A stretch of DNA of 51,486 bases from Nocardioides sp. (lineage in GTDB: Bacteria; Actinomycetota; Actinomycetes; Propionibacteriales; Nocardioidaceae): contig NZ_JAOPXV010000180.1 in assembly GCF_025964975.1 (NCBI RefSeq), positions 1 to 51,486 of the forward strand, in the 5' to 3' direction. The position numbers and the translations under genes are program-made. The notes beneath the pieces are model-generated. The model worked only from the letters and a program-made list of their open reading frames with translations. It had not been told where the DNA came from and made no database searches. Shown piece by piece: positions 48,687 to 51,181 of this stretch (position 1 is its first letter; every line of letters starts with the position of its first letter).

Positions 48687-49568
48687 TCATCCCGACTTGA
48701 GCGAGACCACGTCCCACTGGAGCGCCTGCGTCTCGCGGGGGGCCCGGCAGGTCAGCTGCGCCTGTGCTCGCCGGCTGCTCGTCACGAGCACGCGGACATC
48801 ACGTGGCAGGGGCGCCGTACCGACGACCTCGACGGTCCACGTGCCCGCGTCGACGGTGCCGGTCTGCTCCACCAGCGCCGGCAGCGCGCTGGTGACCGGA
48901 GCCGGACCCCACCGCCGCAGCACTGCGGCCTGCGCCACCTGCTCGGCGGGATGCAGGCCCACCACGCCGCGCAGCCGGTCGACGTCGACGCGACCCTGCA
49001 GGTGGGCGGCCACCGTGGTCACCGACTGCTCGGGTGACATCCCCGCGTAGCAGGCGCCGTCGGGCAGCAGCAGCACGTTGGGCGCGAACCGGTCGCCGCC
49101 GAGGTGGCTGCACTCGAATGTCCCTTCCCGCCACTCCCGGGCGAGCGCTGCGGCGACGGGCCGGCCCTTGATCGCGCAGCAGACGTCGTGGACGCCGTGG
49201 GTGCACACAAGCACCAGCGGTCCGGGGTATGGCGCCCCGGCACCGGGCTCCGACGTGGCGAGCAGGTCGTCGGGGTGGTCCCACTGACCGGTCCGCAGCT
49301 CGCCTTCCACACACCTGAACCAGCGCCGGCGGGCCGGGTCGACGGACTCGCGCCGGCCCGCCTCCCGGCCGTGTGGCCGGATGAGCAGGATCCGCAGCCG
49401 AGGATGCTCGAGTCGCCGGAGGAGTGCTGTTGGCAGGTCGGTGTCGAAGGGGGCGTTCACCGGCCAGGGTCCGGGGTGCTCGACCAGCAGCCAGTCTCGT
49501 TGTGGCGGGGCAGTCCCGACGATGGGATCACCCCGCTCGAGGGCCCCGTCGGAGCAGCGGAAGGTCAT
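48687..49568 (-). CDS. Sucrase/ferredoxin-like (AIM32/Apd1-type thioredoxin-like ferredoxin) protein
   Basis: LVLVCTHGVHDVCCAIKGRPVAAALAREWREGTFECSHLGGDRFAPNVLLLPDGACYAGM; ATGA overlap with upstream cupin gene. Confidence 0.87.
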   Translation of the reverse strand: MTFRCSDGALERGDPIVGTAPPQRDWLLVEHPGPWPVNAPFDTDLPTALLRRLEHPRLRILLIRPHGREAGRRESVDPARRRWFRCVEGELRTGQWDHPDDLLATSEPGAGAPYPGPLVLVCTHGVHDVCCAIKGRPVAAALAREWREGTFECSHLGGDRFAPNVLLLPDGACYAGMSPEQSVTTVAAHLQGRVDVDRLRGVVGLHPAEQVAQAAVLRRWGPAPVTSALPALVEQTGTVDAGTWTVEVVGTAPLPRDVRVLVTSSRRAQAQLTCRAPRETQALQWDVVSLKSG

Positions 49569-50815
49569 CCGGCGACGACCAGTCCAGCCTCGATCAGCCG
49601 GCGTGCCGTGGTCGTCCCGAGCTCCTCGGCGAGGAGCACGGCGCCGGCCAGCAGGCGCTTGAGCACCGCCTCCGGCACGTCTCCCACCGGCACGGTCCCC
49701 GCCCGGGTGCGCAGCAGACGGTCGGCGCCAGTCGCGTCGAGGTCGGCATCGAGGTGCTGGCGGAGCCTGAGGGCCGTCGGCCCGGTCAACGCCGTGGCCA
49801 ACGCGTGCTGCGCGAGGGGCCCGATCGGTTCCGCCCGCTGAGCAGCCCGGCGCTGGGCTCGCAGCCGGGCCGCGACCTCCGCCGGGTCGAGCTCCTCGAG
49901 AGCATCTCGGATCTTGGCAGCGACGAGCTCTGCGTCCAGCTGCTCGGGAGCCAGCGTGGTGCCGAGGTCGAGCGACGCCCGGGCGTCGGGGTCGTCGGCG
50001 AGAACCTCGAGGGCCATCGCGACGAGCTGCTCGGCCACGGAGTAGCGCGTCCAGCTGTGGACGCCCAGCGTCAGGTGGACGGTGACACCGCCCAACGCCG
50101 TGGCGGAGTGCAGGTAGCCGCGCGGGAGGTAGAGGACGTCGCCCGGCTCCAGCACGACGTCGATGACCGGCGCCTGCTCGGCGGCCGACGCGACCTCGTC
50201 GCGCCGGTCGGTCCACGGCTGGTCGCGCAGGGGCGACGGCAGCACCGGCGGGTGGATCGACCACCTCTTGCGCCCGCTGACCTGGAGGACGAAGACGTCG
50301 TGGACGTCGTAGTGGTCCGCGAAGCCCTGGTTGTCGGGAGGCGTGACGTACGCGTTGGCCTGGACGGGGTGTCCCAGGTCGGTGGCGAGCTGCTGGCAGA
50401 AGTCGATGACGGGCGGCCACGTGCGGTGGAGTCCCTGCAGGACGAGCGTGGAGCCGCCCGCGAAGAGAGCTGCGAGTTTATCGTCGCTGACCTGGTCGGC
50501 GATGCCTGCTCCCACGCCCCCTGGGGCCGTGAACGCCGTGTTGCCCAGGGTGGTGCCGTCCTTGGCGACGCGCAGGAAGGGCGTGCGCAGTCCCCGACGG
50601 CCGAGCAGCTCATCGACCGAGTCCTCGCTGAGCAGGTCGGCGAAGCCGGCAGGGTCCGCTGCGGCGTACGACGTGGCCTCGCGAGCCCACGTCGCCTGCG
50701 CGAACGACCCCACGTCACCGACGAGGCGCGCCAGCGCCGGCCGCTCGCCGAGGGTCGAGCCGGCGGGCCCGGGGTCGTCCCCGGGCCCGCCGTCATCAAC
50801 GATCTCCTGCTGCAT
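49565..50815 (-). CDS. JmjC/cupin-4-type Fe(II)/2-oxoglutarate oxygenase
   Basis: GFADHYDVHDVFVLQVSGRKRWSIH (HxD) and VVLEPGDVLYLPRGYLHSATALGGVTVHLTLGVH (distal His); TGATG coupling with the upstream repeat-peptide ORF. Confidence 0.88.
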   Translation of the reverse strand: MQQEIVDDGGPGDDPGPAGSTLGERPALARLVGDVGSFAQATWAREATSYAAADPAGFADLLSEDSVDELLGRRGLRTPFLRVAKDGTTLGNTAFTAPGGVGAGIADQVSDDKLAALFAGGSTLVLQGLHRTWPPVIDFCQQLATDLGHPVQANAYVTPPDNQGFADHYDVHDVFVLQVSGRKRWSIHPPVLPSPLRDQPWTDRRDEVASAAEQAPVIDVVLEPGDVLYLPRGYLHSATALGGVTVHLTLGVHSWTRYSVAEQLVAMALEVLADDPDARASLDLGTTLAPEQLDAELVAAKIRDALEELDPAEVAARLRAQRRAAQRAEPIGPLAQHALATALTGPTALRLRQHLDADLDATGADRLLRTRAGTVPVGDVPEAVLKRLLAGAVLLAEELGTTTARRLIEAGLVVAG

Positions 50816-51030
50816 CAAGAAGTGCTGTCGGCACCGCTGTCAGCGCCACCATCAGCGCCGCCTGCGCCGCCTGCGCCACCGTCGGCCCCGCCGTCCGCGC
50901 CGCCATCGGCCCCGCCGTCAGCGCCACCGTCAGCGCCACCGTCAGCGCCACCGTCTGCCCCGCCGTCACCGCCCGGAGCACCGCCTTCGGCACCGCCGTC
51001 GGCCGGTTCTTCGATCTGGGAGTCAGTCAT
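50815..51030 (-). CDS. 71-aa DGGA tandem-repeat peptide
   Basis: MTDSQIEEPADGGAEGGAPGG(DGGA)x8 GGAGGADGGADSGADSTS; SD GGAGGacgacATG; stop overlaps the next start (TGATG); synonymous codon variation between repeats. Confidence 0.8.
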   Translation of the reverse strand: MTDSQIEEPADGGAEGGAPGGDGGADGGADGGADGGADGGADGGADGGADGGAGGAGGADGGADSGADSTS

Positions 51031-51181
51031 GTCGTCCTCCATTCACGTCGTGGCCGCGAGGGCCGTAAGTGCGACGCCGTGCAGCGCCGTCTCCCTCTGT
51101 ATAGCGGGAACCGGTCGGCCTGCCCACCCCCCGAGGGAAGGCGCCGAGCTCCGCCCATGGCTACGCATCTAGCGTGAGCGC

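Follow-up and report, generated by a model that had tools for sequence, protein, structure and literature searches.

An Asp-rich repeat peptide and a JmjC/cupin-4 oxygenase constitute the core of a small actinobacterial gene system, to which a sucrase/ferredoxin-like (Suc_Fer) protein is accessory. We favour, with moderate confidence, a RiPP-like pathway as the best explanation, in which the JmjC enzyme would hydroxylate Asp residues of the repeat peptide at C-beta. The peptide itself is likely the substrate of the oxygenase and, provided that it is, the C-beta of Asp is quite likely the modified site; that the product binds metal is rather doubtful. The system was analysed in a window of 51,486 nucleotides from Nocardioides sp., which comprises an entire contig of a 3.66 Mb assembly in 238 contigs.

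The operon and its occurrence in Actinomycetota

The peptide encoded in the window (MTDSQIEEPADGGAEGGAPGGDGGADGGA...GADSTS) contains ten DGGA units in all, and every feature that the initial annotation had ascribed to its ORF is present, i.e. the length of 71 codons, the N-terminus MTDSQIEEP and eight DGGA units in series. Both gene overlaps described there were confirmed in the sequence as well: the stop codon of the peptide gene and the ATG of the JmjC gene share TGATG, while the JmjC stop codon and the Suc_Fer ATG share ATGA. The interval originally delimited starts at position 48687, the 3' end of the Suc_Fer gene (Table 1). A GGAGG ribosome-binding site is situated just 5' of the peptide ATG at 51030; a second in-frame ATG at 51042 precedes it, and the relatives align to the 51030 start.

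Table 1. Features of the peptide-JmjC operon, with positions in the window
Feature	Position	Strand	Remarks
Precursor-like peptide, 71 aa	50815..51030	(-)	acidic N-terminus MTDSQIEEP, then Asp/Gly/Ala repeat
JmjC/cupin-4 Fe(II)/2OG oxygenase, 416 aa	49565..50815	(-)	PF08007, E=7.6e-29
Sucrase/ferredoxin-like (Suc_Fer) protein, 293 aa	48687..49568	(-)	PF06999, E=4e-16; accessory
Probable promoter, conserved (G)CTATACA -10-like box, then a degenerate GACGGCGTCGNCCGGCGCCGC copy	51085..51115, approximate	(-)	alignment of 11 Nocardioides upstream regions

Comparison of the upstream regions of L003-L012 and L039-L050 revealed a conserved box, GGCTATACA, in Nocardioides loci (~51085-51115 in the window), and a 5'UTR element, GACGGCGTCGNCCGGCGCCGC, that is common to Nocardioides and Terrabacter-type loci. 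The latter was rejected as a regulon motif, since its perfect matches in genome-wide searches of two relatives are confined to the peptide-JmjC operon. The operon is flanked by a convergent gene that appears penicillin-binding-protein-like and a divergent one that appears amidohydrolase-like, both named by reading of the sequence only.

Among 250 genomes from the window's own family, 135 contain a relative of the JmjC enzyme, and at least 573 confirmed genome stretches encoding one were recovered from the GTDB genome collection. All 80 matches listed for this collection belong to Actinomycetota; the nearest named relatives of the window there are Nocardioides species. The carriers include streptomycetes, arthrobacters and nocardioids, and of 397 genomes sampled evenly across the phylum 59 gave a match. 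Among the matches listed from plasmid records there were only distant cupins with an identity of at most ~35%, none of which covers 80% of the query.

In order to assess the pairing, loci were deduplicated and the sequence 5' of every JmjC gene was read, a locus being judged if the HMM score was at least 300 and at least 350 nt of upstream sequence were available (n=158). The initial annotation would have been refuted if the adjacent small ORF were generally missing; in fact, an Asp-rich repeat ORF lies directly upstream of JmjC in 157 of the 158 subfamily loci. This count comprises 129 loci recognised by an automatic threshold (Asp fraction of at least 0.15), 27 loci below it that plainly carry repeats on reading (26 of the DGGA type and L134), and L108, where the repeats are present in an ORF that runs off the contig edge. 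At randomly chosen positions of these loci, a repeat ORF was found in 2 of 670 cases (0.3%). Within the window's genus, the peptide is found in 11/11 JmjC-bearing and in 0/20 JmjC-less genomes. Moreover, distant cupin-4 controls (score below 200) feature neither the peptide (0/11) nor Suc_Fer (0/11), and the borderline cupin-4 loci L156 and L174, at 206 and 230 bits, are devoid of both. Of all the JmjC-subfamily loci judged, only L106 of Piscicoccus intestinalis lacks a repeat peptide, and Suc_Fer is absent from it too. In the neighbourhoods of 70 loci, with flanks of up to 6 kb, no gene besides JmjC and Suc_Fer recurs widely; a larger biosynthetic cluster was rejected, as these two are the sole widely conserved neighbours.

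The repeat peptide and its oxygenase

Pairwise comparison of the window's ten DGGA units gave 0, 0 and 103 differences at codon positions 1, 2 and 3, respectively, and 90, 57 and 10022 were counted among the 1115 DGGx units of the relatives. Because all 103 codon differences between the DGGA units are synonymous, the repeat is under strong selection at the protein level. Hence, one hallmark of a RiPP, a linked small precursor ORF under such selection, is found both in the linkage (157/158 loci) and in the synonymous-only divergence.

None of the Pfam and NCBIfam models searched covers the peptide and its diverse relatives. In close relatives the unit comprises ~23 aa, EGPADGGAEGTPGVQDGGADGGA, and usually occurs three times, the copy in the window constituting a degenerate, pure-DGGA version. 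The cores of deep lineages combine Asp with Gly, Ala, Ser or Thr, e.g. DADGTDGDGTDGTDGD, in DGTDGD or DATDGD patterns. The four-residue Asp period emphasised in the initial annotation thus describes the DGGA array of the window but is not a rule of the family. Most deep-clade precursors carry a leader motif, L/V-x-D-[DE]-[DE]-[IM]-x-T, ahead of the variable Asp-rich core; the DGGA clade to which the window belongs has a short, variable and weakly conserved leader that mostly does not show the D-D-I-x-T motif. Asp accounts for 18% of the core in the close, DGGA-type group (median 13 Asp per core, range 6-33) and for 29% in the remainder, Gly follows Asp in most cases, and Cys and aromatic residues are nearly absent. 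The core in the window is devoid of His, Asn, Arg and Lys, and the HDGG found in many DGGA-type units does not occur in it. In general, the core type tracks the enzyme tree, with 8 changes. Other, non-DGGA cores reside beside the same JmjC enzyme at L053, L054, L116, L163, L133, L134 and L182; DDPELAGADLDEDQSEGRGPTIEPGA and repeats of ADGTDQGVxGGTYGPRDAS are examples of alternative cores. Taken together, the conserved leader, the repetitive and fast-changing core and the coupled oxygenase constitute the anatomy of a RiPP precursor.

The JmjC protein of the window is a NO66-like enzyme with an intact predicted Fe(II)/2-oxoglutarate (2OG) site. The facial triad H168-x-D170...H236 and the 2OG-binding K183 are invariant in 179 family members; together with the alignment to NO66, the closest solved relative by sequence (E=6.3e-34), and the fold match, they assign the enzyme to JmjC_2. 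Foldseek matches of the model are NO66, MINA53 and YcfD, with FIH further down; the model reaches a pLDDT of 77 and a pTM of 0.60, and the global TM-scores are therefore modest. In addition, R77, R131, Q152 and R352 show complete or almost complete conservation in the subfamily but vary in seven control cupins, and may represent contacts for the acidic peptide. The AF2 model displays a strand-then-helix, winged-helix-like order in the C-terminal region, which, as modelled, is reminiscent of the RRE-like domain described for PF08007 proteins; the bacterial homologues of these proteins are reported to occur in RiPP-like contexts (PMC12710340). The ribosomal oxygenases among the JmjC proteins place the hydroxyl group on C-3 of His or Arg; Asp is additionally accepted by FIH (PMC4543633).

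Several described systems share individual traits with this pair. NO66, MINA53 and YcfD (JmjC_2, PF08007) agree with the enzyme in fold, HxD...H triad, 2OG lysine and affiliation to a protein side-chain hydroxylase family, but their targets are ribosomal proteins, whereas the present enzyme is set apart by invariant Arg/Gln positions of its subfamily and by a repeat peptide that is co-transcribed with it. We know of no adjacent dedicated peptide for NO66, MINA53 or YcfD. The Asp/Asn beta-hydroxylases FIH and AspH perform, as proposed here, Asp beta-hydroxylation in repeated modules (ankyrin, EGF), and FIH is also of the JmjC fold (PMC4543633); however, they are eukaryotic and act on repeat domains of other proteins instead of an operon-encoded dedicated peptide. 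In the biphenomycin pathway, with BipG/BpmG and the cupin PbsQ, a JmjC/cupin hydroxylase acts on a ribosomal precursor peptide, as is proposed for the present pair (PMC12707348, PMC12257519), yet that pathway encompasses an MNIO, a B12-radical SAM enzyme, an arginase and a TldD protease, and its short motif has Orn as target. The system described here features one oxygenase and a repetitive Asp-Gly core, with neither protease nor transporter. Corallotide shares with the proposed pathway the repeated-core precursor hydroxylated by a 2OG oxygenase, and the SmaO/SmaX cluster the Asp beta-hydroxylation by SmaO within a RiPP cluster (PMC13097080); in contrast, both clusters contain a graspetide synthetase, which is absent here, and their oxygenases differ.

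The ferredoxin-like protein

Suc_Fer adjoins JmjC in 150 of 175 loci and is accessory because it is missing in the other 25 (~14%). Of the three-gene order whose conservation the initial annotation had put forward as a check, the peptide-JmjC part endures (157/158), but the ferredoxin, although present in the window and coupled by the ATGA overlap, is not obligatory. Since its presence requires 11 state changes on the tree, Suc_Fer was lost or replaced repeatedly; it is absent in Terrabacter/Humibacillus loci and others, and of the genomes without it at the locus some harbour a homologue elsewhere and others none. At L043 and seven related loci of this Terrabacter/Humibacillus type (among L039-L050), a convergent gene adjoins JmjC that, by reading of its sequence only, resembles a cobalamin/iron-type substrate-binding protein. 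A second, stand-alone Suc_Fer-like gene was observed in the same genome as the window (G000:C7:38655-39299), and stand-alone copies are also found in the JmjC-less genomes G044, G054 and G272. These copies imply that the Suc_Fer family has roles outside the operon.

The thioredoxin-like core of the protein carries the motifs CTHGxHDxCC...HxGGDRFAxN and is extended by a C-terminal beta domain. For the AF2 model (pLDDT 88.5), the best PDB match is the thioredoxin-like [2Fe-2S] ferredoxin 1f37, which corresponds to the central domain and with which the sequence agrees. C122, C130, C131 and H155 are invariant and are candidate [2Fe-2S] ligands, the exact set being uncertain. Thioredoxin-like [2Fe-2S] ferredoxins of the Apd1/Aim32 type (PF06999) share the central fold and the C...CC...H motif region, whereas Suc_Fer shows HxGGD and the additional C-terminal beta domain. 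The corresponding motif of Apd1 is HxGGH. JmjC enzymes turn over without a ferredoxin and the gene is not obligatory, and for these reasons a role of Suc_Fer as electron donor to JmjC is a guess.

Proposed pathway and alternatives

In the proposed pathway, the small gene would give rise to a two-part precursor, in which a short segment for recognition at the N-terminus precedes a disordered, Asp-Gly-rich repetitive core. This precursor would be bound by the coupled Fe(II)/2-oxoglutarate JmjC oxygenase of the NO66/YcfD type, which would hydroxylate the repeated Asp at C-beta and so introduce numerous beta-hydroxyaspartates into the peptide. In loci that have it, the thioredoxin-fold ferredoxin may support the enzyme, e.g. 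by keeping its iron reduced or by supplying iron, or act on the product. The product, in turn, could be either a modified acidic peptide that stays inside the cell or a multivalent ligand of a hard metal, namely Fe(III) or Ca(II). Asp is the strongest candidate for the modified residue, being the sole classical target of JmjC hydroxylation in every peptide, so that the earlier designation of Asp as the hydroxylation site is retained but not its exact four-residue spacing. The dedicated peptide-oxygenase pair, as originally postulated, is borne out by gene association, co-occurrence, leader plus repetitive core and the intact predicted hydroxylase site. Two points speak against the pathway: the leader of the DGGA clade mostly departs from the D-D-I-x-T motif, and NO66 itself acts on histidine, a residue that many DGGA-type units contain as HDGG, though not the peptide of the window.

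The fate of the product is less well substantiated. In siderophores, beta-hydroxyaspartate is known to coordinate Fe(III). Upstream of the operon, however, IdeR, Fur and Zur boxes showed no excess over shuffled sequence, leaving a metallophore role without regulatory support, and no transporter gene recurs in the 70 loci; membership of a metal regulon was rejected on the basis of these boxes. Near the same loci (flanks of up to 6 kb), neither a leader protease nor an exporter recurs, and maturation and release are therefore unsupported, though such genes are not obligatory for all RiPPs and could be encoded elsewhere. Hence, for the mature RiPP-like or metal-binding product suggested by the initial annotation, no backing by secretion, protease or metal-regulator genes was found.

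Alternatively, the peptide might serve as a disordered acidic partner dedicated to the oxygenase (chaperone, inhibitor or scaffold), while JmjC modifies a ribosomal or another cellular protein. The kinship of the enzyme to ribosomal oxygenases and the acidic, low-complexity nature of the peptide accord with such a role, and the invariant R77, R131 and R352 could bind acid side chains in either case. Nevertheless, we deem this unlikely: a variable repeat number and a fast-changing core beside a conserved enzyme look substrate-like, and tandem near-identical 23-aa units are rarely kept in fixed binding partners.

Clearly unlikely, too, is a modification of the peptide at another atom or by another reaction, be it hydroxylation of Ala, Gly, Pro, Ser or Thr, desaturation, backbone cleavage or cross-linking. 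Asp is enriched in both core types (18% and 29%) and is present as the classical JmjC target in each of them, and to our knowledge there is little precedent for Gly or Ala hydroxylation among protein JmjC hydroxylases. On the other hand, Gly and Ala match Asp in their conservation within the DGGA clade, and 2OG oxygenases are versatile, with RiPP macrocyclisation among their reactions (cited in PMC12710340).

The ORF could also act as a regulatory leader: its acidic chain, while being synthesised, would destabilise the ribosome or cause it to stall, and would thereby couple JmjC expression to Mg2+, the translation state or the Asp/Gly supply. Acidic nascent chains can indeed destabilise ribosomes, and the ORF is short, lies directly upstream of JmjC and overlaps it at the stop and start codons. 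Yet its distance to the JmjC start varies across loci, ~80 aa of amino-acid sequence are kept by selection while synonymous codons are freely exchanged, repeats and leader motif persist across classes, and alternative non-repeat cores exist (L053, L116), all of which renders this explanation highly improbable. Finally, although high-GC repeats readily give long open frames in several phases, a chance overlap of a GC-rich tandem repeat devoid of coding function with an ordinary cupin-4/ferredoxin pair is ruled out by the 0/0/103 substitution pattern, the conservation in 157/158 loci and the perfect co-occurrence in the genomes tested.

JmjC hydroxylases in RiPPs, as established for BipG (PMC12707348), RiPP Asp beta-hydroxylation by SmaO and the hydroxylation of repeated cores in corallotide (PMC13097080) are already known. 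In the literature searched, outside of which most subscription journals lie, no description of a two- to three-gene, JmjC-only system with an Asp-Gly repeat was found; neither RiPPs that combine a cupin with a ferredoxin nor the repeat strings of the peptide were found there, and the Suc_Fer literature retrieved is unrelated. We tentatively propose, at somewhat less than even confidence, an undescribed actinobacteria-wide peptide class, in which a single NO66-like JmjC enzyme would turn the tandemly repeated Asp-Gly core of a ribosomally made peptide into a poly-beta-hydroxyaspartyl chain acting as a multivalent metal ligand or structural acid, with the help of a thioredoxin-fold ferredoxin.

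If the Asp hydroxylation of the repeat peptide were confirmed, an orphan JmjC subfamily would gain a defined, genetically linked substrate, and Asp hydroxylation would be extended to a repeat, polymer-like RiPP. Likewise, the function of actinobacterial cupin-4/ferredoxin pairs would become directly testable, and the D-D/E-D/E-I/M-x-T leader offers a handle for genome mining. Moreover, such a class, if real, could shed light on the relationship between JmjC ribosomal oxygenases and enzymes of peptide maturation.
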